Shown here in pieces: positions 4,382-62,799 of a stretch of DNA of 64,000 nt; positions within the stretch are counted from its first letter, which is position 1, and the number at the start of each line of letters is the position of its first letter. This DNA is from Coriaria nepalensis (taxonomy: Eukaryota > Streptophyta > Magnoliopsida > Cucurbitales > Coriariaceae), in NCBI GenBank assembly GCA_027186245.1, contig CP114482.1, positions 33,437,209-33,501,208 on the forward strand, in the 5' to 3' direction. Below the pieces are notes generated by a model, which saw only the letters and a program-made list of their open reading frames with translations, was not told the DNA's origin and did not search any database. The translations under genes were made by a program, and so were the position numbers.

Positions 4382-5490
4382 TTAACTTCATTATTCACTA
4401 CCCTATAACCTTGGAATTGTCCTAAGGTAACTACTTAAGGAAAAACAAAAAACAAAACAAAACAAAATGAAATGAAAAATGAAATGGTTGAGCTATATTA
4501 TTCAAAAGTAGTGTGTTCCAAGACAAGTAAGGGTATCGAATGTTCTTGTTATAAAAAATTAAATAAAAAATCAATTAGTTCAATGATGTCATATAAGTAG
4601 TTTGTGGGTCAACCATGTCATTGTAAAATTCCAAGTAATTGTTTAGTAAGATCTCAAAGTTCCTGATAATCCTAATACTTCTTTCATATCCTTTACCTAG
4701 GCCTTACGTTACAACCTAGTAAGGATCTAATAGATCTTTTGGAAAGTCCAGCTTAGAAGTTAAGATAAGTAATGTGTTCTTCCTACGTTCTTAATACTTA
4801 ATTTTTTTTCATGAGATCCATATCCGGAAATAGCATTCTTTTCTTTAAAAATTCATATATGATGTATTTTCCTCCTATACAATAATTATATTCTCATATT
4901 GTTGATGATAGTGAAAAATTAGGTTCCGTTAAAAGAAAAACAAGAGTGAAATTTGTGAGACTTAGAGTTGAGGTAAATTCTATCTATGCCAGTGAGGTAT
5001 AGTTACTTTTAAGTTAAGATACTTTGAGCAAGGTTGTTCATACTAGATGTGATCCATTTCTTTGATTGATATTAATTTAGTCTAGAACTAGTGATTATGG
5101 TATACAATGGTTTTCTTTTTTTTTTTGGAATTCAAAGAGTTATATCTTGTTTGATAGAGGGTATGCGTTTATGGGTGTCGTTCTAGTAAGCCATTTGGAT
5201 ATAAAGTGTCTCCACTTAAAGCTCGTCGGCACATGCTATAAGTGCAACCGTGATTCCCTACATAAATGGCCTGGATAGAATTGTTATTTTGTTTTTAAAT
5301 TTCATTCATTTATTTTATATGATTTTATCATACTCTTACCCTTGAATTTATACTAGTTTATCCCCTAGTTTTATCTATTTTATTATATTTTAATGTAGGA
5401 GGGAATAAATTCATGGATTATTTTGGAGAAAAAAAGATGAAAAGAAATCAAAACTGAAGTTATGGTGCAAAGTGTTCGTAATAAAGAGAA
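4382..5490. other. Intergenic, no gene recognised
   Basis: AT-rich spacer between the copia LTR and the CACTA-like terminus. It holds an A/C-rich simple stretch near 4440-4470 and a poly-T run near 5116. No coding pattern with recognisable domains was seen. Confidence 0.6.
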
Positions 5491-6859
5491 GGTACACTAC
5501 AAGAAAATGTAGCAGTGGTGATATTTTATATGCGTCACAAATAATGCCTATGTCATATTTACTTATAAACGTCACAAATGGATTATTCGTGCATGCTATA
5601 ACTACATGGCATCAAAAATTGTGTAGAAATTTTTGCGAGAAGGGTTCCCACTACTTTAATGGACTGCACGTGATGGTCATGTGAGGGAGATTAACTATAA
5701 GTGATGATTATTGGCATCAATTTTTAAAAAAGAATGTTAGATGAAAATATTTTTTACGCGCGGTTGCTTGGTACGACCATATGCTCGGGTGGCATACATG
5801 TCTAAACGGTGCACTTCACTCCATTTTTCTTCAATATTTAGAGAGAACACGATAGTTTACAATCCTCCTTTGATTTTCCCTTATCGCTTAACCCCCAAAT
5901 TTAATTTCCAGCCTTAATTCTTGGTCCTTTCGGCCCAAATCTCTTCATTCCTCTAAAGTCTGCCTTAATGTTTTCATCCTTATTTCAAATGCGGAGAAGC
6001 CTTACTTTTGAATACTCCTCAGGCCGCAATGAAAGATTGAAAATATTGTTTGGTCCAGTTCTAAAAGAATTGAAAGGTATAGTTGTCTCTTCACTTTATT
6101 TCTATGATAAATTTCTCTTATCCATACAAAGAATGAGTGATAGGGAGTGAAGAACAATAATAGTATAATGATGAAATTTTCTAGATTTTTTGGATCATGT
6201 CTATATTTGTGTTCTTGATTGCATGTTTATATATGTGTTCATTAATTTGCTTTGTTACTGTTTGATTACTCTACTGTGTGCATGGGTTGAGACATTAGCA
6301 CATCATTGATTGGCTAAGCTTAGGTTGTTTAATTTGACCAATAATGAATTTGACAAGTACGTTATTTTTAACCAAGATAAATTGAAGATTACATCAATAA
6401 TTGGGATCCAATAATAAAACAGTGGTTCATGTGTTTAATATATATATTTTTTTTTCTTTGTATGTAGTAGTTGATACCTATTTTTAGATGAACATAGAAT
6501 GGAGCCTTTAATATTAGATGGTTCATGTGTTTAGAAACCTAAAAGATATAGATAGGTCATTTCAATTGTATAGCCTTTAAACTGAATGGATTAGGTGTTT
6601 ACAATAATGCTTGATTTTACATGTATAAGTACTATATGGAAGTTACTGTTTCGTACTATCTATGTTAAGATGTCATTAATTTGTATTGTATAAACGATGG
6701 GAAAATTTTCTTTCTGCATTGGATATTAACTTCAAGAAAGAATGACTAGGTATAAATGAACACGGGGGATGAAGAAGGAAATTTACTCACTGAGCAAGAG
6801 GTATATGACAAGGCATTGTGATTAATTATGGAGTCATCAAATTCATATCGAACGTATTA

Positions 6860-16301: not shown

Positions 16302-18687
16302 ATGTGGATGATAGGGTGTAATGATGCTGCTGAACTCAACATTGCTGACTCCTTCAATGGCCGTAAGCTTAGGCCTCTCATTCCCCGGCCGAGGCCTTCT
16401 ATTAGCACCACCTCAACTACAAACCAACCTACAAATTTTAGCGGAATTCACGGCAAAGCCGACTTGTTTTCTCAATATCATCATCTAGGTATGCATTTTT
16501 CATCTCTCGATCTCACCATTATTTTTTATTACTTATAGATTTTCAACTCGATAAATAAAATATTTACCGTTAATCGCATCAAACTGGTGACATTCCAACA
16601 GTTGATATGCAACAACTATTTTTGGTCGATTTGCTGGATCGAGTACCTAAGAATTTCTTATGCATGACTTCTATATGTAGTTGTTTCAAGTGGATATACA
16701 TAATATAAATGTTATCGTTATTGATCAATTTGTAGGAGCAAGCACTCATGTAATTGATCAGAGCAAGAGAGATTTCAATAGTAATACAAGTAGTTCTAGT
16801 ACTCCAGTTGTGAGCTCATCAAGGTGGAATCCAACACCCGAGCAGCTAAGGGCTTTAGAGGAATTGTATAGAAGAGGGACTAGAACACCATCTGCTGAGC
16901 AAATTCAAAACATCACGTCACAGCTTCGCAGGTTTGGTAAGATAGAAGGAAAGAATGTTTTCTATTGGTTTCAAAATCACAAGGCAAGAGAACGTCAGAA
17001 ACGACGCCGGCAAATGGAGTCATTGGTTGAACCATCTATGGATATTGAAATCATAGAAAGAAAATATTCAGGTACGTACTTGATAACTACTAATATAATT
17101 AATTAATTGATTAATGAGTAATTTATTTCTCTTCACAAGAAACATACAAAGATGATATTAAATATAACAGTTGTTTTGTACGGTGTGGTTGATTTATCTT
17201 GCTTTTTTTCTTTTTTTTTTTCTAGTCCAATTGTTGTTTGAGGTGTAAAAAGTTACTCTTTTTGTTTTTCCTTTTGTCTACAGGGTCGGGAAGGGCAGGG
17301 TATGAAGCTGAACAGGCCAAGAACTGGGCACCCTCTAGAAACTGCAGTACACTTGCAGAGGTCTATTTCTTTTTCTCTGTCATAATTCGTTGAGAAATTT
17401 ATCATTAAATGGCTAATTTTATCACATATTTATCATTAAATGGCTAATTTTATCACATATATATATACTCATGTAGTGAAATAATTATTACTGATTTTCA
17501 CACTGTCATATATGACGCGAAATATGTGCGTATCTTTAAACTCAAACCTAGGGAAATATATATTGATAATTTGCATATGATTACCCAAAATAATGATGAA
17601 TTTTAGGTTAAAAAAGCATGCGAAGCAAGATAGATATCACTATATTGCAGGCATATGACTAAAAGGATGGGAAGGGAACCAACAAAAAAGTGGTTATGTT
17701 TATTATTGGGAAATGAATAGGGTCTAAAAAAGCTGCAATCCTACCTTTCTGTCGGGGCTGTTTTTATGAAACGAAGCTGCAAATTTTTGGGTCTTGTGCT
17801 TATTCATGTCATTGATTCAGGGTCAGTACTACTACTACGATTTTTTGTGCCCTAAATTTCAAAAAATGAAAAGAAAACGGGCACTCTTAGGGTAAAAACT
17901 AGTATAGTATTAGTACGTATTCTGGTGATAACAGTAGCGCAGTCGGGCCTCTTCTGCCCCATTTCCTTCATTTTGAATTAGCTCAAATTACTAGTAAATT
18001 AGTAAATAAATTACTTGTTTATTGATATATATATATTTACAGGAATCCATTTCAATCCATGAAAGGGCAGCAAGAGCAGCAGTAGTGACAGAAAGTAGAT
18101 CATTAAATGGATGGATCCAATTTGATCATCATCATCATCATCATCGTGGAGACCAGACATTACCATTACAACAAAGAAGGAACTTGTCAGAAGAGAATTC
18201 CACGTGGCAGATGGATAGTACTAGTACTACTACTATTCCTTCTCCTCCTCTTCCCAACCAACTCATAAACACTACCATCAGAACAACATGTACAAGCACT
18301 GTTCCAGCCAGTACTTTAGTGAGAACGATGGATCCAAAACTCATTAAAATACATGAGGATTTGAATAATAATAATATATTTATGAAATCCTACAGATCAG
18401 ATGATCATCATCACCAAAATGTCCTTGCTGACAATTACTTATACAGTATTAGTAGTACTAGTACTGTCAGAAACATTGAAGAAGAAGAAGAAGAAGATCA
18501 TGAAAATGGTGGTTATGATCGTTCTGAAACCCTTCCACTTTTTCCACTTTGCAGCCTCCTCAATAGTAACCATAGAAATGGATCAGCAAAAGATCAGTCT
18601 CGTGAGATATCATCATCAGTTTCAAGCAGTACTCCTCCTCACCAATTCTTTGAATTCCTCCCATTGAAGAATCAGCAGGTAGACTAA
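16302..18687 (+). CDS. WOX1: WUSCHEL-related homeobox transcription factor, WOX1 type (LAM1/STF/MAEWEST class)
   Basis: Four exons are predicted: 16302-16488, 16736-17071, 17284-17360 and 18043-18687. All have GT..AG borders and matching phases, giving 414 aa. The N-terminus [19 protein letters not shown] and the LFSQYHH block are WOX1-class signatures. The WOX homeodomain spans about residues 91-155 ([20 protein letters not shown] to [19 protein letters not shown]). A WUS box, TLPLFPL, starts at residue 363, and a C-terminal repression motif, FFEFLPLKN, starts at residue 402. Exon 3 carries the [13 protein letters not shown] block shared with STENOFOLIA. Exon 4 also holds a six-His run and an acidic run. 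Proteins of this class are nuclear transcriptional repressors promoting lateral leaf-blade and petal outgrowth. I chose the first ATG after the TATA box; no upstream ATG competes. The gene looks intact. Placement in the WOX1 branch is strong; one-to-one orthology is inferred. Confidence 0.95.
17399..17460. repeat. Exact 31-bp tandem duplication in WOX1 intron 3
   Basis: The unit beginning TTATCATTAAATGGCTAATT occurs at 17399 and 17430 without mismatch. It lies in the intron between exons 3 and 4 and is probably a recent slippage duplication. Confidence 0.9.
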
Positions 18688-21345: not shown

Positions 21346-24170
21346 TTCATAATAAGTTGCATATAGTTATTTAGATGTTCTGTAATTCGTGTCTACTTAT
21401 GATTATAGCAAATTATAATAAGAAAATATTTAGAACAAAATTCTCAAAAATAAATGAGAAATACATAGTGAGATAAGTTAACTAAATAAAATAGCTTATA
21501 GGAAGTTAAACTTTTATTAGGTTAAGTTAAATTCTTAATTGGATAGGCAAATAATTGATCCAGTGTTCGTGAAGTATACAATCCTTCAAGGAAAGCACAT
21601 AATCTAGGTAAGTACAAACCTCACCTACAATATGAAAACTATTTTTGAAACTTTATGAGTTATTTGTAATGATTAGATGATTGTTCATGTTATTAATTAA
21701 TTTGTATTTATGAAATAATTAACTGTTATGAGTGTTATAAGTGTTATAATTGCTGGATATAAAAAATTCTTGAACAACATATGTACTCATGAGCATCATG
21801 CAAAATATACCTTATATTTCATGTTAATGAATTAAGAAGTATATGAAGATAGAAAAAAAATGAGATTGAATAGTTTAGTATTGTACTGAACTTAGAAGGA
21901 AGGGTCAATCTATATGAAGGGGAGATCATGATAAATTATGTTAATGCATGGAAAGACATGCAGAGACCATGGTTAAGTTCGGTTCGGGTCGCTCCACCAT
22001 CTTTCCACTGGTAGATTACTTAAATGGTACATACACAGAGCCTATTAAAAGAAAAAGTAAGAAAGTATAAGAAAGAGTAATAAAAACATGTAATAACTTT
22101 TATGAAGAGTGTAGGTTTTAAGATTATTATATATTACATGGTTCATACAGTATATGCAATTGTAATTGTCTTTTGAGTTATGTTTGTACTTGCTGAGCAA
22201 AAGCTCACGTCTTATGTTCCATGTTGTAGGTACTAAGGGTAAGCAACTAATCATGTTATCCCGACAAACTTGCCAAGAGAGTGTAATGATTGTGAACGAG
22301 GTAGTAGTACTAGAACTATAACTATGCCATAAACTTCCGCTTTACTATTGTAAACAGTAATAATTATAAATATTTTGGTGCATTGTGAAGACTTGACAAA
22401 TATTTTGGAAACCTTCTTATAAATGTTTTGAGATCTCATAGTTGAAATGTGCATGTTTAATAGTAGCGCTTTAAAAAATATATTTTTTATGATAGATATT
22501 ACTACTACTCAAGAAACTCTTTTAATGAAGAAAGTTTTAAAAGGTTTTATTGAAACTAAGTCCTTCGTGGGAAAAAAATGTTCCAATTTTACGAGAAAAA
22601 ATATAGTAATGTAATGATCCGAATAGTGCGGGTCGCTACAACTAAACTAAGTTATATCTTAACTTTAATATGTGTGATCGATTAAGTTTTATATCATGCT
22701 AGTAGGAGGATCTCATAAGACTTTATGGTTTTATGTAATTCATAATTAGATTTGTTTAATTTTAAAACACTTTTTAAACTAAACAGTTAATTTAATTATC
22801 TTATAATTAATTAACTTAAGCCTCCATAACAAGATTGACTTTTAATAACGTGTTATGGCTACTCTAGAGATGATAAGTAAGTATCTTCCAAAAAAACCTA
22901 TTGTGACTACTAACTGTACAATAACTATCATTCTATCTAGCCAATGTCTTGATTAATCTGAGAGCATGGTGTAACTATTACACCCTAACAGACAAATTAT
23001 ATGAACTATTATATCTTTAATAAACTAAGATATAGATTGATTAAAACTCTTTTTATACTATATTATCTTGTAAGGATTTCATTGTTTAATAAATATACAA
23101 CTCATAAGACTTATTTTCCTTTAATAACATAGTGATGGATTCCATCTTGATCACTCACAACCTTTATATATAACATTTTATATTTAATGGTTCACCCTAT
23201 TTCACCATTGACTAGGGTTTATATGAATGATATCAAAGTATAAAACCTGGCACATAAGATACCACGATGATCTCAGGTTTAAGGACCATATGTAAAACAG
23301 TTACTAGATACTTCTCATTAACAGTTAGTATTATTATCATTGAAAATTATCTAAGTGTCACATTTGGTACTCTTAGTCTCTACTAAGATTTTATAAGATT
23401 TGATTATTAAGTTTAACTCTTTAAAACTTAATCCATTTATTTAATTAATTTTATTAAATAAATCACATAAACATATAGGACAATCCTAATAAATCATGTA
23501 TTAACTTATGAGATGCATGACTTAAAATAAAATTGTGTGGGTGATGTATGGCATGTAATCGACTAATGTATGAATATGTTATCAATCAACATAAATTAAT
23601 AAATATAATAGACCATGTAATTTTGGGTATTTCTAAAATTTATAACCTTTCAAAAAATACAAATAAATTAAAAAAACAAAAAATTACATAAGGGCTTCAA
23701 GTATTACATCCTTCTCTAAGCTTGACTCATCTTGAATTTGAGTTCAACCAGTAATTTTCTAAAACAAACTCAATCCCTAAATCTCTATAAAAATAATTTT
23801 TCTAACCCCAGTTTTATATTTAATTTAATTATTTCTAATTGGGCCTAAACTCTTTTTGAGCCTATCGGACTTATTTGGGTCAAACCCAAGAAGTTTTTTG
23901 GTTTTTCAAAAAAATTCCAAAATTAAATTCATGGGCCTAAAATACATTATTTTTGGGTCACAAAATAATGGGTCAAACTCGCTTACTAGCCATGTCACGG
24001 GTTGAACCTGTAACCCGACCTGTTTTAGCATTATGGGACAGTCGCTAGTCCGTCAGCAGCCTTATGTCATGGGACAGTCCTATGGCTAGGCTACCGTAGG
24101 ACCATCTTGCGGCTGCTGCTTGAAGCGTCACTGCGGGACAGTCCTGCGGTTGCTACATGCAGCGGTGACA
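21346..24170. other. Intergenic, AT-rich, probable transposon filler
   Basis: No reading frame with recognisable domains. The AT-rich sequence at 22700-23640 resembles LTR or non-coding retroelement DNA in composition, but I could not find paired ends. Near 23990-24170 a GC-richer block repeats phrases like GGGACAGTC(C)TGCGG. Confidence 0.45.
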
Positions 24171-44034: not shown

Positions 44035-44351
44035 ATGAAGTCCCTTAAATCCCCTTCCTTTTCCACCTTATCTCCCTACCTACTCAAAAGAACCTCTCAT
44101 CCCTTCTTTTTCTTTACCTTCAAATCTACTCTCTGCAATCATCAATGGATCAAAGCCCTAAACTTTTCCACCCTAAAACCACCCATAAATTCGCTTTCCG
44201 AAATTCCAATTTGTTCAATCCATATTCGAACCATGCAAATAGGAGCATCTCTAATCCCACCTTCCGGTGAGATTCATGTGATAGATGGACCTATGTTTGC
44301 TGGAAAAATTACGACCCTTCGCCGGATTCAGTCTGAGAGCTGTAATGGCAG
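44035..44351 (+). pseudogene. TK1: Thymidine kinase (TK1) first exon with transit-like N-terminus
   Basis: From the ATG at 44035 (context AACAATGAAG) a basic, Ser/Phe-rich N-terminus leads into [14 protein letters not shown], the P-loop region of TK1-type thymidine kinases (normally GPMFAGKTTTLLRRIQ). Here the Thr after the P-loop Lys is Ile (AGKITTL) and one Leu of TTLLRR is missing. The exon ends NGR at a GT donor (44352). Plant TK1b enzymes are organelle-directed, so the N-terminus is plausibly a real transit peptide. The kinase part cannot work alone. The exon can splice in phase either to the PPR exon (44736) or to the decayed TK exon 2 (47418). Confidence 0.8.
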
Positions 44352-46875
44352 GTTGGTACTTTTTCCCACTTCTGCTTTAGTTTCTTAGCTTCATACTTGG
44401 GCTTGGAATGTTGATGTGTTTATTCAATTCTAGGTGCTACTGAATGAATGCTTAGCGTCATATTGAAATCGTATCTTCTTCTTCTTCTTCTTATTTTTAT
44501 TTTTTTTTCAAAAATTTCAGTGTCTAACATGGACATGATATATGCTTTTGTGTAAACTTGAAGCGTTGTTTATCATATTTGTTCGTACTTGTTGCATTAT
44601 ATTTCAAGAATGTGAGGCATATATTAGATATGGATACACGTGCATTTTGAGAAAACTGGCTTTTCTTCTCCCATTAGGTTTGTCAAGTAGTCGAAGTATA
44701 TAGTAATTGTTGCTTTTCAAACCTATATTATACAGGGCTGTTGCAGTAAGAGAGTCAAACAAGTACACAAGATATGATAGTGATACAGTCTTGAGTGATA
44801 ATGGGTCGGAGTCCGAGACCGAATGGGGATGTTTGCTTAAACCTTTCGACCTCAAAAAGCTTAGAAAGTCATTCACTCAAATCAGCCCTTTTCAGTTATG
44901 TAAATTGCTACAACTACCCATTGATGTACCCACTTCAATGGATATATTTGAGTGGGCAGGTGCACAGAAGGGCTATTGCCATTCATTTGATGTATACTAT
45001 GTAATAATTAATAAGCTAGGAGCAGCTAGGGAGTTTAAGGTTATTGATAATTTATTGATGCAGATGAAACAAGATGGGATTGGTTTTAAGGAATCCATTT
45101 TCATATTAACAATGAAACACTATGGGAGAGCAGACCTGCCGGGACAGGCAACACGATTGCTATTAGATATGCGTAATGTATTTTCATGTGAACCCACCTT
45201 TAGATCTTATAATGTTGTTTTGGACATACTGGTTTCTGGTAATTGCCCTAAAGTTGCACCAAATATTTTTTATGAAATGTTGAATAAGGGCATATCTCCT
45301 ACTGTTTACACATTTGGCGTGGTAATGAAAGCTCTTTGTATGATCAATGAAGTGGATTCTGCATGCTCGCTTCTTAGGGACATGACTAAACATGGGTGTG
45401 TTCCCAATTCAGTGGTTTACCAGACACTGATACATGCACTTTCGAAGAACAATAGAGTTAATGAAGCGATGAAATTGTTGGAGGAAATGTTTCTGATGGG
45501 TTGCGAACCAGATGTTCAAACCTTCAATGATGCAATCCATGGCCTTTGCAAGGTTAATCGTATTAATGATGCGGCAAAATTGGTTGATCGAATGCTTCTC
45601 CGTGGTTTTACCCCTGATAGTGTAACGTATGGTGTCTTAATGCATGGATTGTGCAAATATGGACAAGTTGATGAAGCAAGGGCGTTACTGAACAAGGTGG
45701 CCTGCCCAAGTTCCGTGCTCTTCAATACGATAATCAATGGATACGTGATGAGTGGACTGTTTGATGAAGCTAAGGCTGTTGTTGAACATGGGATGTTAGA
45801 TTATGGGCTTGAGCCTGATGTTTTTACATACAACATTTTGATTCATGGCATATGTAAGAAGGGGTTTCTTGGTTCAGCTATAGAGATGGTAAATGAGATG
45901 ACAATGAAGGGTTGTAGGCCCAATGTAATTACTTACACGATTTTGATTGATAGGCTCTGCAAGAAGGGGCGACTTTTTGAAGCAAATCGTATTTTAGAGG
46001 ATATGTTAGCCCAAGGACTGAGCTTGAATACCGTGGGATACAATTGCCTAATATGTGCTTTATGCAAGAATGAAAAGGTTTCTGAAGCTTTAGTAATGTT
46101 TGGTGAAATGGGTACCAAAGGATGCAAGCCTGACATTATTACATTTAATACACTAATAAATGGCCTTTGCAAGGTTGAGAAAATGGAAGAGGCCTTTGGA
46201 TTATATCATGATATGTTATTGCAAGGGGTTATTTCCAATACTGTTACTTACAACACCCTCATCCATGCTTTACTTAGAAGAGGCTCGATCCAAGAAGCGC
46301 TTATGCTTGTAAATGATATGTTGTTTAGAGGATGCACTCTCGACAAAATTACTTACAATAGCCTAATCAGAGGATTATGTAGAGCTGGGGCTATTGATAA
46401 GGGACTGGGGTTATATGAGGAGATGATGAGAAATGGACTTAATCCCGATCCTATATCATGCAATATTCTACTCAATGGTCTCTGTAAATCGGGCAAAGTA
46501 CACAATGCATTTGAAGTGCTTAAATATATGATTTATAGGGGTTTTACACCTGATATTGTTACTTACAACTGCTTGATGAATGGTTTGTGCAAGATAGGAC
46601 ACATTGGGGAGGCTTTGAATCTATTTAAAAGATTACAAGACGAAGGTATATGCCCTGATGCTGTAACCTATAACACGTTAATCAGTTGGCATTGCAAAGA
46701 GGACCTGATGAATGATGCATGTTTACTTTTATATAGAGCTGTGGAGAATGGGATAAGACCTACTGATGTGACTTGGCATGTTCTAGTTAGCACTTTGTTA
46801 AAAGAAAATAACAAGGAGAGTCCAACTTTCTCCTACAATCAGGATGGATTTGCTTCCTTCTTTGAAGTAACTTGA
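44035..46875 (+). CDS. MTL1: P-class PPR protein, MTL1/At5g64320-like, apparently started by a thymidine-kinase-derived first exon
   Basis: The PPR frame runs to the TGA at 46873-46875 and holds about 17 P-type repeats of 35 residues, with one short repeat of 31 (LNKVACPSS region). Sequence blocks such as [19 protein letters not shown] and [12 protein letters not shown] match the plant family of At5g64320 (MTL1, needed for mitochondrial nad7 translation and splicing). No ATG precedes 44938 in this frame, which is too late. A splice acceptor at 44735 joins in phase with a donor at 44351/44352 ending a TK1-like first exon (ATG 44035). Exons 44035-44351 and 44736-46875 would give 818 aa. Residues 1 to about 85 are Ser/Lys/Phe-rich and transit-peptide-like. 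About 95-127 are TK-like, and MTL1 similarity starts near 130. The fusion model is inferred; the PPR identity is firm. Confidence 0.8.
44736..44803 (+). other. Duplicate of TK exon 2 start, fused in frame to the PPR ORF
   Basis: Bases 44726-44804 align without gaps to 47408-47486, including TATTATACAG at the acceptor and CACAAGATAT inside, at roughly 70% identity by eye. The reading frame is the same: [12 protein letters not shown] here against VAIIKSNKDTRY in the TK copy downstream. The similarity stops where the MTL1-like ESETEW sequence begins. Confidence 0.75.
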
Positions 46876-47417
46876 AATAATGGTACAATTAAAGGTAATC
46901 TGTTGAAATGTTGTGTAATGTACACTATGTTTGGGCTTCTGTCTGTGATTACACTTAAGTTATTACCATATGCTCTTTTAAATACCTAAAAAAAAAAAAA
47001 TTATTCATTGAAGTCTGAGAAGTGGCATCTACTTTTGTAATACAAAACCTAGTATTTTGCCAAAGTTGAATGCTTAAGATTCTTTTTTTTTTTCTTTCAA
47101 GAATTTAAGTCGATATATTATTTTACATTCAAAATGATGAAAGTCTAGAACCCAAAACTCACTGCCCTATTTGTGCAATTTATTATTTTGCTTGCCCTTT
47201 TATGAGCTATTGTTGGAAGGATGATATATTGTTTTGCGCTATTGGTTATATCTATAAAATTATTATTATGAAGCATCTATTAAAAGTGACATGTGAGCAT
47301 TTTGGGGACAACTGATACTCATTCTGCAGTAAAATTAGCTAACTGCTCTTATTAACTCATTTACTGCCTTAGCAAGTTTTGTTAAATATTTATTGTTTGT
47401 TAAACAGTATTATACAG
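46876..47417. other. PPR 3' flank / former TK intron
   Basis: AT-rich non-coding sequence with A- and T-runs. It should hold the 3' UTR of the PPR gene and ends at the TK exon 2 acceptor (TATTATACAG). Confidence 0.6.
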
Positions 47418-48400
47418 AAGCGTTGCAATCATAAAGTCAAACAAGGACACAAGATATGGATTGGATTCAATTGTGACCCATGATGGTTTGTAGTTGCCTT
47501 GCTGGGCATTAACTACGTTGTCATCTTTTAAACAGAAAGTCGGGCCTGATGCATATGAACAGGTATCTGTATGTTTGTCTCTTTGTAATGTCAATTCAAA
47601 ACCCCAGTTTGAGTCTATCTATGACCCTGTTTGGATCAACAAATTTCAAGTTTTCTTAAACTCATTCAAATTGCAACACAGTCTAAAGAAAGTACATTTT
47701 TTCAAAGCTCAAGTTTACATAATGCCAATACTAAATTCAAAACTCAACTTTCCAACCAATTAGTATTACATGTTTACTTTTAAACTTGTATTTTAGTTAC
47801 TTACATGAGACGTAGTGGCAGCTAGATGTATTCCAATATTGATGAAGCACAATTCTTTGAAGACCTTTATGACTTCGGTCGTGAAGCTGCTGATAATGAT
47901 GGAAAAACAATTATTGTTACTGGACTGGATGGTGACTACTTAAGGTAAATTTACTTTACTGTAGTACCCCTTTTGAGGTTACTGTAGTACACCCCCTGTT
48001 GAGGCTATGCCCATTATGCCAATTGCTTCCTTTTTTAAGAAATTCTTAGACAAAGCTAGTCCATGTGCAAAATCCTATAAAGTAGTTATGATTAGTCTAG
48101 TCCTCATGGACGGAGATAATTAAAATCTAAATTGAATTTGTTGGAAGTTTTATGATCCTTGAACAGGAGCTTTGGTTATGTACTAGATATAATTCCCCTT
48201 GCTGATTCTGTAACCAAATTAACAGCTAGATATGAGGTCAGTGGGAAATGAGCTTTCTTTACACTAAGAAAGATGGAATTGATCGGGGGTGCTGATGTGT
48301 ACATGCCTGTATGTTGCCATCACTATGTCAGCGGACAATGAGTCATGGAGGCAGCCAGAATCGTGGTGCAATCAAAGAATGTCCAATGTGCCTCTTTTCA
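47418..48400 (+). pseudogene. TK1: Thymidine kinase (TK1) exons 2 to end, decayed
   Basis: Remnant exons lie at 47418-47562, 47822-47944 and 48167 to about 48400, each still bounded by AG/GT sites. Exon 2 encodes VAIIKSNKDTRYGLDSIVTHDG, then a TAG, then LPCWALTTLSSF. Exon 3 has a frameshift before [12 protein letters not shown] and keeps [11 protein letters not shown]. The last exon keeps [20 protein letters not shown], then reads VSGK*AFFTLRK with the zinc-site Cys replaced by Ser, a stop and a missing segment, followed by ELIGGADVYMPVCCHHYVSG and a stop in place of the normal continuation. TK1 phosphorylates thymidine; this copy cannot. The PPR exon separates it from its first exon. Confidence 0.88.
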
Positions 48401-48769: not shown

Positions 48770-50178
48770 TTCTCAAGAGGGTTTCAGTGCGGTGACCAGT
48801 AGGAAGAAAAAGTCTGGACAAGCTAGAGTTGTGGGTGATGCTTAGAATTCGGGAGTCATGACTAGGCATCAATCCAAGATTATTTAATATGACAGGCTCT
48901 CTTATTTTCTGGAACTGTAGGGGTATTAGTAATCCAGGAACCCTTGCAAGGTTAAAGAAGATAGAGAGATAGTCTCAAGTTTCTCTATTTGGTTTGATTG
49001 ATCCTTGGGTTGATGAAGCCAATATTAGGAATGTTAACATATGTGTGCAGCTTCAAAAAGATCTTTCTAATCAAGACGTAGGTGGGAAAATCTGGGTTTT
49101 TTGGAAAGTTTTTTTGGACGTGGAGGTGGTTTCTGTTCATAAGCAATTTGTGGCCATTTCTGTCGGATGGTTGAATATCAAGATTCTTATGGTTACAGTG
49201 TCTGCAAGTTGTTTTTCCTCTGAGCAAAGACTGTTATGGGCGGCTCTTCTTGATCTCATGAGTTCTAGTACTCTTCCGGTAGTCATGCAAGATTTCAAGG
49301 AATGAATCCAAATGGCGGGACTTATTGATCCACCTTTGTTGGGTTTGATTTACACTCATAACTATTGGGCGGACCTTGCTCGTTTTTATTCTCGTCTTGA
49401 TAGAATTTTGGTGTCTCCTGATTTATGTGATTACTACAATGGGAAAGTGGTGCACCTGGAAAGGGCTCATTCCGATCACTGTCCTGTTATTTTTTAACCT
49501 TCTTCGCTTACTTATAATGGTCCTCATCTTTATAAGTTTCAGGGAATGTGGATCTCTCATCCTTCTTTCTTGGATTCTGTTCATGGTGCTTGGAGTTCCG
49601 CTCATGCAAACTTGTTTGTTAGGTTGTTCAATAACCTATACATGGTTAGGCAAACTTTACAGGTTCGGAACAATGACATTTGGTAACATTTTCTCGGCGG
49701 TTCAACCTTGGAGAGATAAGGTGGAATCCTTGGATTGTTTGCTTAAGGAGTGTTGGTCTTCTGAGATTTATGAAGACCTTCAGCTTGCCCGCTCGGCTTT
49801 TAAATAGTCTTTTAAATGAGGAGATTTATTGGAAACAAAAATCTCGGGAACATTGGCTTGTAAAGGGTGATAGTAATACGAAGTTTTTTCATGCTTCTAT
49901 ACAATCTAAAAATAGGCAATTGAACCTTTTTGAGATTCAAGAGGATCATAGGAATAGCTTGGCGGATCCGTATGCTTTTCACTTGGCAGCTATTAATTAT
50001 TATAGGTATCTTTATTCTTCTAAATTGGTTCAGTGAGAAGACATTTTCCAGGTTATTACTTCACTTGTCTCAAAGGATGATAACGCCAAGTTGTTGGCCC
50101 TTTCTCGATGGAGGAGATCAAAGAAGTTGTGTGGGCTATCCCTTAGATAGATTCATCGGAGGATATGAAAAATATACT
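48770..50178 (+). mobile_element. Non-LTR retrotransposon (plant LINE/L1) fragment: ORF1 end, endonuclease, start of RT
   Basis: A short ORF1 tail (AVTSRKKKSGQARVV near 48790) precedes ORF2 at about 48889: SLIFWNCRGI opens an APE-type endonuclease, and the block SRLDRILVSPDLCDYY...AHSDHCPVIF (to about 49496) is its typical end. The N-terminal RT linker follows: W.KQKSREHWLVKGDSNTKFFHA near 49830, and a broken EEIK..VW.IPLD block near 50115. Stops and frameshifts are frequent. The copy ends abruptly at about 50178, where an LTR begins, so RT and the 3' end are missing. Inactive. Confidence 0.88.
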
Positions 50179-50832
50179 GTTTTTGTTTTATGAGCAAAAT
50201 CATAATTTAATTTATAATTTGATTATAAGGGTAAAATAGTAATATTGATTTATTAAATTTAAGTATCTCTCCTAGCATTATTTAATGTGATATCAATTTA
50301 ATTAAAATTAATAAATTATATAAAAAAATTTATTTAATAATAAAAGGTTTTTAAAGTTCATATTTAATAATTAGACATTAAAAATTTAATGACCGGCTAT
50401 ATAGATGAATTGTGACTTATTATTTATTTAATTAAATTAAGAATCTTTTGATCTAAAACCTAATGGGCATTATATATACCCCATTAGTGTTTTCCAAAAA
50501 TAACAAGCTTGCTCCTCCTTTCTTTGCTAAAACCCTGGTGAGAGAAACAATAGTGTTTTCTCATCTATTTTCTTGAGTTTTTTGATTAATGAGTTGAATT
50601 TTAAAATATAAAATAAACTGAATAAAACAAATCACGTGATAAAGATTATAAGACGAACATATGGGTGTCTACACCTCCAACAACTTGGATTTCAAAGGAA
50701 ATAAAATTTGTTCATTCAGCTCGCTTAACTTATCAACATTGGTAATCTTTTCTACTCTTGAATTTTATTTTGATAAGATTCAAAAAATTTTACTTTACCA
50801 TATGTGATGCTTCGTATGCATAAATTCTAGCA
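50179..50832 (+). repeat. Copia-type LTR inserted in the LINE
   Basis: A 654-bp stretch from TGTTTTTG to CTAGCA begins exactly where LINE similarity is lost and ends one base before a tRNA-iMet primer binding site. Inside are a TATA-like TTATATATACCCC near 50470 and a leader-like region with TTTGCTAAAACCCTGG. It is a 5' LTR (not solo), since PBS and internal sequence follow. A 3' LTR was not found. Confidence 0.7.
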
Positions 50833-56887: not shown

Positions 56888-59800
56888 AGAAAAATATTTC
56901 CAAATCTAGAACATTTCATCCAATATATTTATTAAATTAAACATTAACAATAATTTCGTAAATTTATATATTTAATTTTTAATGATTCAATTTTATAAAT
57001 GAAAATTGGAATAAATATCCAAAACTTAGCATAAATTATAATTTATACTAAAAATATTTATTAATACTCATGTACGTGTTACATGTCTATTAAATAATTA
57101 TTAAAAATCTAAATTTGACTCAACTAAAATTTTTTATTTATATTTTTACCTCATTTAATTCAAAATTAATTTTTTAACTAACTTTTTTTATTTACTTTTA
57201 TTTCTTCCTAATTTCCACCATATCGACCGCTACCATCCTCCTCCTCTGCTACTAAAACCACCAGCACTATTATCACCAACCTCTCTACTGATATAAAATT
57301 ATTAAAATTATAATTATTTTCTCTCTTTTTTTCTCTAACTCTTATTATAATTTATTCTAAGTTTTAGGGATTTATCCTAATTTCCCTTTTATATATAGAA
57401 TTTAAACTTTGGTGCAAGTTAAGCCGTTGGAGAGTGACCTGATTACAAAATGAAATGTTGGAGACAAACTAGAATAAACAAACAGTGTACTACAAGTATA
57501 CTATTCAATAAAACATCAAATTGATAAGTGGAAGGGATACAAGTTAAAATGTTACATTCAAATTTACCCTCTCGAACAAAGAGATCAAAACTCTGTCACT
57601 AGCTAGTGGGCTGCTGCTTTTAGTGTTATATATGTTTGCAAATCCTTTCTTCAACTAAGTATATTAATTATATATATATATATATATATATGTACATATA
57701 ACATGCATGTTCTTTATGCGTCCATTCATTGTTATTTACTAATTTTAATATGCAAAATCCTCGTTATCCTTGTATCTAGTGTTGGTACCATTCATACGTT
57801 AAAATCACGTGGGTTAGCTTGTCAATTTTAACGATTGACAACTACACAATTGCAACCAGGGGGAAAGAAAGAATGCCAAATAATATTCCATAGGTCAGTA
57901 GTGGGAAATTTAAGTATGACATATTGAATCAAATATCGAAGGAAGTAACAATTGGCAAACAAGTTCTAAGAAATTACCATATATGATAATATAAAATAAT
58001 TATCATATTTATTAGACTTGGCAGTCATTGTTTATCTACCGCAATGAATTATTTATTAATAATAATTAATAAATAAATAAATAAAATAACATTAAAAATA
58101 GTTTTTTTTTACTTTCATTGATATTATTTTATCTATATTTTCTTACTCACTCTTATTTTTCTTAATTTTTCAGACCATCAAAAAAAGGGAAATAAATGAA
58201 TTTGGGGGATCATTATATGTATAGAGTAAGTAAAATATGATATATATGTATATATATATATATATATAGAAGTTCTTGTTCATAATAATTTTGTAATATT
58301 GAAGTAGGTAACCTCCAACTCTTAGACGTCAAGACGAATTCCAATAACACCCTTCATCCCTTTCTAAAGTCAATCCTTCCAAATGGGCAATTGATCCTAG
58401 TTTTCTTATAGATCCTAGTTTTCTTATAGATCAAAGTAGATAAATTGTTAACCCATTTAGATTAGCTTTAAATAGTTGTTATCATTATTTGTAATTTGTG
58501 TCCATATATGATTCTCTGTTAAAATGATAGTATGGTGATATAATTGAAACAGGCATGGAGTAAGACAACTAAGAACCGGATGGGCAGATGGCCCTTCTTA
58601 TATTACACAGTGCCCCATTCAATCGGGACAATCTTACACTTACAAATTCACAGTAACAGATCAGAGAGGAACTCTTTGGTGGCATGCACATCAGTCTTGG
58701 CAGCGTGCTTCTGTGTATGGTGCTTTCTTCATCTATCCTCGCTTGCCCTATCCATTCTCACCTCCCGTGAATATTCAAGCTGAAATTCCTATTATTTTTG
58801 GTACATACCTTATCATTTCCTAATTATCATCCACTGTAGTTTAGAACTTTCTCAAAACCAGTTGACAGTAAGCGGAGTTACTCATCTTTTATATATATTA
58901 GATTTTTAAAACTTTCTTTTCAGATATGACATATATTTTCTCAACAAATACTAATCAGGTAATATGATTGGTGAGGCTTAATTTGTTGAGCACATGATGC
59001 AGGTGAATGGTGGAATAAAGATGCAGTGGAGGTGGAAAATGAGATGATGAAGTATGGAGGAGGGCCTCAAGTTTCTGATGCTTATACCCTAAATGGTTTA
59101 CCGGGACCTCTCTATCCTTGCTCCAACAAAGGTACGTACGTACCTTGCATTTATTCTTATTGATCTTCTGACTCACAATTGTACCAACTGATCTATTCTG
59201 TTGATCGAAGCAACTCGTGATAGAATTTAATGGATATTTCTGATTGATAATAGCATACTCATTTTGGATCTTATCTGTTATACCAAGGAGTTTTAATGAG
59301 AGAACATGTATGGTGATGTTGATATGATTAATGATCTATTTGTTCATAAAAATTGTGCAGATACTTTCATTCAAACAGTTGAAGCTGGGAAAGCATACAT
59401 GCTTAGAGTCATCAATGCAGCACTCAACAACGAGCTCTTCTTTGCTATAGCTAATCACACATTAATAGTAGTTGAGATTGATGCAGCTTACACAAAACCC
59501 TTCCAAACTACTGCCATCATGATAGCTCCCGGACAAACCACTACTCTTCTACTCACCGCTAACCAAGTAATTCCCATCTCTTCCTCGGGCACATTCGTTA
59601 TCTCAGCCAGACCATACCTTACTACCGTTTTTCCCTTCAATAATTCCACCCTAGTAGGCTTCTTACAATACAAAACTACAAGAAGAATGGGTAAAATTAA
59701 GCCCCCAACTCTTCCCAACAACCTTGTCTTCCACAACCTTCCCGAAATGAAAGACACGGTTTTCGCCACAAAATTTTCAGACAATCTGCGGAGCCTTGCC

Positions 59801-60481
59801 TCCTCTCAGTACCCATGCAAGGTTCCAAAAACAATCGATAAGCGAGTTATTACAACCATAAGCCTTAACCTTCAAGAATGTCCCGAAAATGCAACTTGCA
59901 AGGGTTATCTTGATAAGAGGTTCTTTGCCTCCATGAATAACCAATCTTTTGTTAGACCTTCTATGTCAATATTGGAATCTCTTTACAAGAAAGTCACAAG
60001 CAGTACTGGTTTTACAATGGATTTCCCAGAACAACCTCCAAACAATTTTGATTATACTAGTGTGGATCCGTTAACCGAAAACATGAATACGGAATTCGGA
60101 ACAAAACTTTTGGCAGTGCCTTATGGCACAAACTTGGAAATTGTCTTTCAAGATACAAGTTTTCTTAATGTGGAGAACCATCCGATTCATGTTCATGGCC
60201 ATAACTTCTTCATTGTGGGTAGTGGGTTTGGAAACTTTGATGTAACCAAAAGTCCGAGAAACTATAACCTTGTTGATCCTCCCGAGAGGAATACGGTTGC
60301 AGTTCCGACAGGTGGATGGGCGGCAATCAGAATTCGAGCTGACAATCCAGGAGTATGGTTCATTCACTGTCATCTTGAAGAGCATACTTCTTGGGGTCTT
60401 GCTATGGGGTTTGTTGTTAAAAATGGTTATGGAAAATCTAACTCTTTGCTTCCTCCCCCTCGTGATCTTCCCACCTGCTAA
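55563..60481 (+). CDS. Laccase (p-diphenol:dioxygen oxidoreductase), secreted multicopper oxidase
   Basis: Five exons: 55563-55670, 55759-55910, 58553-58800, 59003-59131 and 59361-60481. All have GT..AG borders and matching phases, giving 585 aa (plant laccases are ~560-590). A hydrophobic signal peptide occupies about residues 1-28. All four copper-binding regions are present: HWHGVRQ (from H86), WWHAHQSW (H131/H133), [10 protein letters not shown] (from H486) and [14 protein letters not shown] (H548-C549-H550, H554), with Leu559 at the usual axial T1 position. The enzyme oxidises phenolics, such as monolignols or flavonoids, in the cell wall using O2. The second intron is large (2.6 kb) and rich in TA microsatellites. 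The C-terminal 373 codons are one exon. It looks functional; the C-terminal [11 protein letters not shown] resembles the LAC7/8/9 or LAC14/15 side, and the subgroup is not settled. Confidence 0.95.
55911..58552. other. Laccase intron 2 with multiple (TA)n microsatellites
   Basis: A 2.6-kb intron containing TA runs at about 56698-56727, 56861-56887, 57671-57692 and 58249-58268, and an 18-bp exact tandem duplication (GATCCTAGTTTTCTTATA) at 58393-58428. A GC-richer purine block at 56280-56450 and a C-rich block at 57215-57285 look like ends of an inserted, decayed repeat. No coding sequence was recognised. Confidence 0.7.
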
Positions 60482-61205: not shown

Positions 61206-62565
61206 TGGAAATTAGTTAGGACAAATTTTGGCTAATTTCTTAGCTGATCACCCTTCTAAACTTTTGCCCAACAATTGCAATAACATGTTTGAAGTACTTC
61301 GTGTTGAACAACTTTTTTGGGAGTTGTACTTTGATGGATGTAGTACCGAGCACATGTAGGAGCCGAGATCTCTATTAAGTTACCGGAAGGTATACATAAT
61401 ATATGGTCCTTTCAACTCAACTTTTCTTTCACAAATAATCAAGCCGAGTATGAAACCCTAATTATAGACTTGAAAATTTTGTAAGAGCATGGAGTCTTGC
61501 ATCTAGCAATTGTTGGTGATTCTCAATTAGTGGTCAGACAAATATTATGAGTTTATAAGTGCACTAACCCCGGAGTAACCGGGTATTTTACCATTACAAT
61601 CCAACTCTTAGAACAATTTGAAGAATGAGCTTTAAACAATGTTTCTCGATCTTTTAAAGCATAGGCTAATGGCATAGCGCAATTGGCATCCGACTTAAGT
61701 ATATTGGACGAGATTTCAAGAATAGTGACTGTCTATAAGTGGAATAATCTAATTTTTACCTCTACACAGGTCGGATTCTCGATCTTTAACATGGAAAATC
61801 TTGAAGCAAGTGATTAACGGTTTCCTCTCATCAAGTATCTTCAGAATCGAAATGGAATTTACCTAGTCAAACTGCGCAAGCTCTTAAATACACTTTGATA
61901 GAGAATGAAGGCATACAATCGTGAAGGAGGTTTATGACGGAATCCATGGATTCGACCAAGCCGAATGAAAAATGCATTCGCTAATTAGGCATCGCAGCTT
62001 TTACTGGCTGACTTTCCTAAGAGATTGCATCAGATACTGAAAATAATATAAGAGTTGTCAAAGATGCAGACCGATTCAGAGGCAACCAATGTGGACTGGT
62101 ACGTCTACAACACCATACTCTTTAGTATATGGTCATTACGTTGTATCCCCTATGAAAATCCAATAAACGTCTCTAAGGATTGCATTGCAAAATGGTCTAA
62201 CTCCTTCGAATAATCTGAATCAATTCATATTGAGTTAAGTTAGAGGATTTGAAATGATAAAGATTGGATACATTGAATGTTTTGACAGATCACAAAATAA
62301 AGTCATCAGGGCCTACAACAAAAAGGTAAAAGCTAAATCATTTGTAGTCAGGCACTTAGTCTTGAAGGTATTACCTCTAATCAGAAAAATAGGTGTTTTG
62401 AAAGCTTATGGTAAATGGGCTCCCAATTAGGAAGGATTTTTTCGAGTGCGACAAGAATTTTGTAACAATGCTTACTTGTTAGAAAGCCTAGAGAGCATAG
62501 TGCAATATATGCCGATTAATGGTTTTTATCTAAACCATTACGTCCCAGCTATGTATTAGAATGCA
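61206..62565 (+). mobile_element. Ty3/gypsy polyprotein remnant (RNase H and integrase)
   Basis: Plus-strand fragments in broken frames show RNase H (VEQLFWELYFDG near 61300, then NNQAEYE and VGDSQLVVRQI-like phrases to about 61550), an integrase zinc-finger/core region that is badly decayed (61850-62200), and the integrase C-terminal tail (RAYNKKVKAKSFVV, LVLKVLPL, KWAPN and NAYLLESL, 62310-62545). This order is typical of gypsy elements. Stops and frameshifts are frequent; LTRs were not identified. Confidence 0.8.
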
Positions 62566-62799
62566 TAAACGAAGAAAGAGGTTTCGACTACATATTTGTT
62601 TGCTTGGTCATTATCAGAAATAAATAAGGTGCAAAAAGCAATAAAGAGTCGAAAAGATCAACTAGAGAATCGATCACTAAGCAGAACAAAAAAAAAGTCT
62701 TAAGAGGATCGCCTCTTGATTGATCTAAATGTCAACAAGTCATGATGAAGTGTACTAAAGAAATAAAGTAAATGAAGCTGTAGAAGTGGATGATATATT

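Follow-up and report, generated by a model that had tools for sequence, protein, structure and literature searches.

The 64,000-nucleotide stretch of Coriaria nepalensis DNA analysed here (the window; C2:33437209-33501208 in the 316-Mb assembly of 20 contigs) carries on its forward strand a locus in which thymidine kinase (TK) and PPR sequences are interleaved. Elsewhere in the window, comparison with Pfam identified a Gag pre-integrase piece with a sub-threshold zinc knuckle (273-1461), a homeodomain exon (16681-17103) and a multicopper oxidase exon (59300-60478). The TK/PPR locus opens with an exon of TK1b type (44035..44351, 317 nt), which begins with an ATG at 44035, remains open for 105 codons plus 2 nt and ends at a donor site (CAG|GTTGGT, final exonic base 44351). 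It encodes a start codon, a putative organelle leader of ~77 residues and a degraded P-loop stub. It is followed by a phase-2 GT...AG intron (44352..44735), the 5' part of which is collinear with intron 1 of a TK1b gene on contig C9, and by a PPR exon (44736..46875, stop included). The locus continues beyond the PPR stop codon to ~48395 with TK exons 2-4, and its counterpart half lies on C9.

The TK1-like character of the first exon, recognized in the initial annotation along with its ATG, was borne out by tblastn searches against the window, in which the similarity to TK1b extends along the whole exon, beginning at the first Met and including the P-loop (48% identity to residues 1-101 of Arachis P0014 and 44% to residues 1-108 of Glycine P0015). 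Taken alone, the exon scores 13.6 bits against the Pfam TK profile, below the cut-off of 20.6, and a search against the sequences of solved structures in the PDB returned 0 matches. As also proposed initially, the PPR frame contains no ATG upstream of its conserved block: the ORF opens at 44707, and its earliest ATG, at 44938, falls within that block. The only other ATG in this frame between 44352 and 44938, at 44542, is cut off from 44707 by a stop codon. Joining exon 1 to 44736-46875, through the acceptor AG whose last base is 44735, yields a single open frame of 818 codons, in agreement with the phase match noted earlier. This match by itself is weak proof, because 49 of the 9 x 30 donor-acceptor pairs tried give an open frame into the PPR sequence, and phases agree by chance in 1 of 3 cases. 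The junction nevertheless appears to be more than coincidental, because the intron 44352-44735 has TK sequence on both sides, and we propose, on the basis of this anatomy, that the TK1b-derived exon is the first exon of the PPR gene. An additional donor is present within exon 1 (44254-44275; CCG|GTGAGA after 44266); used with some of the acceptors, it could join the leader to the PPR sequence without the kinase stub.

The PPR part contains 15 PPR_2 stretches (Pfam) and shares 71% identity with Prunus P0001 over 692 aligned residues. Several of its homologues are named At5g64320, and its sequence assigns it to the MTL1 (At5g64320) type of P-class PPR proteins. Arabidopsis MTL1 is listed in one report as a splicing factor for intron 2 of mitochondrial nad7 (PMC8034646). 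In a search of the whole assembly, in which 63 of 1128 candidates were scored, the window provided the one full MTL1 match, and the next best match listed was 33% identical. Native MTL1 leaders are present in other plants. In the window, the position directly before the conserved block is occupied not by a native short leader but by codons of TK exon 2. No counterpart of native leaders was found in the 40-52 kb region of the window: for each of the 15 MTL1 leader regions searched, the best match starts at 44737-44812, and further matches in the same region are weak (best E 0.011).

The opening ~41 nt of the PPR exon (44736-44776, 14 residues) are not MTL1 sequence; they repeat, in diverged form, the start of TK exon 2 (RSVAIIKSNKDTRY), and the intron end that precedes them is a copy of the intron end preceding the real TK exon 2. 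A block of ~180 bp, comprising the acceptor of intron 1 and the beginning of exon 2, thus occurs in two copies, one on each side of MTL1. The upstream copy spans 44597..44776 on the forward strand, with 44597-44668 aligning to the C9 intron 1 and 44697-44776 to 47383-47458; the downstream copy, which contains the acceptor of TK exon 2, spans 47252..47458 on the same strand, its ends being approximate and derived from a three-way alignment with C9. The first 71 nt past the PPR-exon acceptor align to the downstream TK exon 2 with a score of 49 (shuffled maximum 27, 0/300 as high), and the last 45 intron bases match the downstream copy better than nearly all shuffled sequences (1, 0 and 1 of 300 as high under three scorings). 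For the remaining intron compared with 46880-47380, none of 300 shuffles scored as high under strict scoring, and 23/300 and 26/300 did so under looser scorings. The segment 44597-44668 matches C9 intron 1 (L018 5952-6024; score 47, null maximum 28, 0/500 shuffles) and has a score of only 25 against the C2 downstream copy (9/500 shuffles). The segment 44352-44593 has no match in either C9 intron 1 or the C2 downstream copy (478/500 and 81/500 shuffles as high), and the block was therefore delimited to about 44597-44776. The two C2 copies have the same 10-mer at their acceptors. A date for the exon-2 duplication based on the coding part (Ks 0.78) was dropped, because the stretch used overruns the fusion point and the remaining ~13 codons common to the two copies carry no synonymous difference.

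Downstream of MTL1, TK exons 2-4 are recognizable on the forward strand as a pseudogene with GT-AG boundaries but with four lesions in 166 codons, one frameshift and three stops. Exon 2 (47418..47562) contains a TAG at 47491; exon 3 (47822..47944) has a 1-nt insertion near its start (123 nt versus 122 in C9); and exon 4 (48167..48395, end approximate) has TGA codons at 48249 and 48339, a 5-codon deletion and has lost two conserved Cys residues. Relative to the near-invariant columns of 102 TK rows, the window deviates at 0/25 positions in exon 2, at 4/29 in exon 3 (two of which are the frameshift itself), at 5/36 in exon 4 and at 2/18 in the kinase part of exon 1. Exon 1 has 0 lesions in 105 codons where 2.5 would be expected (P=0.08), so that its open state is, alone, weak evidence. 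The window thus lacks a TK1b gene in the sense of a leader exon with an intact TK domain: exon 1 is open, its P-loop is altered and exons 2-4 are broken. In a protein tree of 103 rows (the window and 102 of the 120 rows listed among 843 found), the window TK is placed beside four Cucurbitaceae rows with support of 98/97. Directly behind TK exon 4, the region 48900-50200 resembles by eye a LINE-type endonuclease; a Pfam comparison of two of its frames gave no match.

The putative leader of 77 residues (8 basic, 1 acidic, 25% Ser+Thr) resembles those of TK proteins in length, charge and Ser+Thr content: the medians of the 94 of 102 TK leaders that were measured are 79.5 residues, 9 basic and 1 acidic residues and 27% Ser+Thr. 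Its amphipathic moment of 0.31 is close to the TK median (0.32) but lower than the values of three native MTL1 leaders (0.44-0.58). The median identity of the window leader to other TK leaders is 0.29, and that of those leaders among themselves is 0.31. A protein begun at 44938 would have no leader-like sequence at its N-terminus. Exon 1 could supply both the ATG and the leader, and splicing to 44736 would produce MTL1 with a TK leader, the predicted product comprising the leader, a dead P-loop stub of ~30 residues, ~14 codons of exon 2 and the PPR array. The N-terminus of maize TK1 is described as directing import into both organelles (PMC7463494). The window gene thus most likely encodes an MTL1-type PPR protein that would enter mitochondria on a TK1b-derived leader, and perhaps plastids too. 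The kinase stub would stay between leader and PPR array unless removed by processing.

TK exons were detected at three places in the genome (12 matches), namely, the window on C2 and loci on C9 and C10; the leader is not covered by the C10 matches. At the C9 locus (L018), TK1b is intact, its four exons encoding a 277-residue protein that has a leader. Intron 1 of this gene (5343-6114, 772 bp) contains a decayed MTL1 piece of 282 bp, an 86% match to window positions 44819-45102 (MTL1 residues ~28-122), which is frameshifted by two 1-bp gaps and differs from the window at 11, 12 and 16 sites in codon positions 1, 2 and 3, respectively (94 sites each). The order of elements, exon 1, 5' intron part, MTL1, 3' intron part and exon 2, is common to C2 and C9. 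Reciprocal loss is directly visible: on C2, MTL1 is open and TK dead, whereas on C9, TK is open and MTL1 a relic. The window segment 44594-44818, including the duplicated block and the fusion point, is absent at C9, so that the fusion itself is not directly seen there. Beyond TK and MTL1, a blastn comparison of the window with 110 kb of C9 yielded three blocks (22972-23198, 61553-61901 and 62100-62699), the latter two transposon-like by eye; none of the three was counted as a common gene.

TK1b and MTL1 are neighbours in gene models of Prunus, Populus, Salix and Linum. MTL1 follows TK within single models in Prunus dulcis, Populus tomentosa and Linum trigynum; in Salix suchowensis, the two have consecutive locus tags; and Linum perenne models have MTL1 placed after TK exon 1, ahead of exons 2-4. 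Merged TK-MTL1 models may be annotation artefacts, although the gene order is visible nonetheless. A TK-like sequence is joined to MTL1 in 7/33 distinct proteins (P0001, P0002, P0004, P0007, P0010, P0025 and P0027, the last two assigned by eye). In the comparison of MTL1 and TK1b loci suggested along with the initial annotation, the exon-2-derived junction of the window occurs in none of the 25/33 proteins for which the stretch before the conserved block was displayed, full-length MTL1 proteins being scarce in the lists compared, with none of them labelled as coming from a cucurbit. P0025 and P0027 of Linum perenne may offer a parallel to the window: MTL1, there with a leader of native appearance, is preceded in the same frame by a stretch that resembles TK exon 1 and has an altered P-loop.

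A different PPR sequence, presumably similar to At4g16470, is found between TK exon 1 and TK exon 2 in models from Arachis (P0014), Prunus (P0001), Linum trigynum (P0004) and Pistacia (P0120), and a Citrus TK (P0065) is annotated as a PPR protein. The best match of this E-type-like PPR in the present genome is located on C5 (L022, C5:12838519-12839760), away from TK, there being no TK matches on C5. Its 449-codon frame has no Met before the conserved part, and a Met-bearing stretch upstream lies behind a stop. TK1b intron 1 may be a repeated host of PPR genes. A broader proposal is that, in rosids, exon 1 of TK1b has repeatedly served as a donor of leaders and intron 1 took in at least two PPR genes, MTL1 (the window and Linum perenne models) and the unrelated E-type-like PPR (Arachis, Prunus, Pistacia and Linum trigynum models), with kinase and PPR protein sharing the leader by alternative splicing; we regard this as rather doubtful at present. 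If it were true, organelle DNA-precursor supply and organelle RNA processing would come under one promoter.

Given that the paralogous C9 locus holds an MTL1 relic between TK exons 1 and 2, MTL1 was in this position before the locus duplication, for which the C2/C9 comparison gives Ks values of about 0.3-0.4 (0.28 for exon 1 and 0.37 for exons 2-4). The Ka/Ks ratio of TK exons 2-4 between C2 and C9 is 0.19 (0.10-0.35). Neutral evolution of the window TK from the duplication onwards would be expected to give a ratio of roughly 0.55, which was reached by 2/2000 bootstraps. The low ratio therefore indicates that selection acted on the window TK during much of the period in which MTL1 separated exons 1 and 2 of this gene; splicing of exon 1 must accordingly have passed over MTL1 in that period. 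The ratio for exon 1 (0.60; 0.32-1.21) decides nothing. In the intron columns of the block, the C2 downstream copy and C9 share 30 sites, compared to 18 for the C2 upstream copy and C9 and 17 for the two C2 copies, and the grouping of the C2 downstream copy with C9 was recovered in 1859/2000 bootstraps; with the exon columns added, the figure is 1995/2000 but is biased by selection on TK. These patterns suggest that the block was duplicated earlier than the locus, although the identical acceptor 10-mers and the lack of synonymous differences between the C2 copies could mean that this happened late.

The locus is probably one half of a split 'gene marriage', in which a TK-MTL1 locus sharing one leader was duplicated and opposite halves were lost from the copies. 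The ancestral locus would have had the order TK exon 1 - MTL1 - TK exons 2-4, with a 5'-truncated MTL1, as still seen in the sequence, lodged inside TK1b between exon 1 and a complete exon 2. Judging from the anatomy, the upstream acceptor would have allowed in-frame splicing of TK exon 1 to MTL1, and the downstream acceptor splicing of exon 1 past MTL1 to TK exons 2-4. Through alternative splicing, two proteins would thus have shared a single start codon and a single organelle leader. From the selection on TK exons 2-4, we infer that both spliced products arose from one unit in the ancestor. After duplication of the locus, the window copy would have kept MTL1 and the C9 copy TK. What is observed conforms to this scheme in that the guest coding exon stands in frame with the host leader exon through valid splice sites and the copies became specialised by opposite losses after duplication.

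The fusion could alternatively be younger than the locus duplication: in the ancestral locus, MTL1 would have lain within TK intron 1 and possessed a start and a leader of its own, and it is only the window copy that would later have lost these and gained the duplicated acceptor block. The Linum perenne models, with a native-looking leader kept in an MTL1 at the same position, would fit such a history, as would the lack of the fusion block at C9 and the identity of the acceptor 10-mers. However, the intron columns place the upstream copy outside the pair formed by the C2 downstream copy and C9, and we consider a later fusion improbable. It is still harder to envisage that another first exon or promoter drives MTL1 and that the in-frame TK exon is a bystander: the many donor-acceptor pairs that yield an open frame allow for this, but the intron end and exon-2 start of TK itself sit at the junction, and the region searched provided no native leader match. 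Least credible of all is that the MTL1 frame is itself non-functional. The native leader has been lost, but the PPR exon has 0 lesions in 713 codons, whereas about 17 would be expected at the rate of the neighbouring TK pseudogene, and there is no other full MTL1 match in the assembly.

As for the mechanism, the capture of the TK leader by a PPR gene, the core of the initial annotation, is the best reading of the genomic evidence, the PPR gene having no start or leader of its own, but the exon shuffling invoked to explain it does not hold. Shuffling of an exon from a distant, unrelated locus was rejected because the acceptor is a copy of the TK intron-1 acceptor, the fusion point falls within TK exon 2 and the PPR exon is directly followed by TK exons 2-4. 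Given an A-run at 46988-47000, downstream of the PPR stop codon, retroposition of an MTL1 mRNA with a target-site duplication was considered; however, the A-run is separated from the downstream block copy, which has its start at ~47252, and in other rosids TK and MTL1 adjoin each other. Local insertion or unequal tandem duplication appears at least as likely. Under the preferred reading of a shared leader followed by division, insertion, sharing, duplication and reciprocal loss would be readable from one genome, with both halves of the split preserved. For annotation, the locus is a caution that an apparent TK-PPR 'fusion' model may represent a gene that genuinely shares an exon, and that a kinase exon, though dead, may remain in service as a leader.

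Leader sharing is known for organelle genes that moved to the nucleus and needed an address label. In the present case, the gene concerned is a nuclear one, for a PPR protein, and it appears to have swapped the leader that it has in other plants for that of a neighbour. Among the open-licence PMC papers listed, none joins TK and PPR as judged by title or start of the abstract. The closest unsplit analogue is sdh2-rps14 of grasses, described as having rps14 in an sdh2 intron, with the first exon serving as leader and both products made by alternative splicing (PMC1543663). As proposed for the window, guest and host both encode mitochondrial proteins and the guest sits in an intron of the host, the first exon of which is the leader. 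However, rps14 is derived from the mitochondrial genome and had to obtain a leader, while MTL1 is nuclear, with a leader of its own in other plants, and the remaining exons of the host are dead at the window locus. The SKI7/HBS1 pair of fungi similarly goes back to a single ancestral alternatively spliced gene for two proteins but, as far as that account indicates, involves no organelle leader (PMC3597508). In SODcp-RPL32 of Malpighiales, the leader is reported to be common to both products by alternative splicing, and the poplar copies to have divided the functions (PMC8429499, citing Cusack and Wolfe 2007), a succession of leader sharing, duplication and division of two functions between copies that resembles the one proposed here. 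The two cases differ in that RPL32 is plastid-derived and forms the last exon, whereas the guest in the window is a PPR gene behind exon 1, and in that each TK/MTL1 copy retains a visible relic of the half that it lost.
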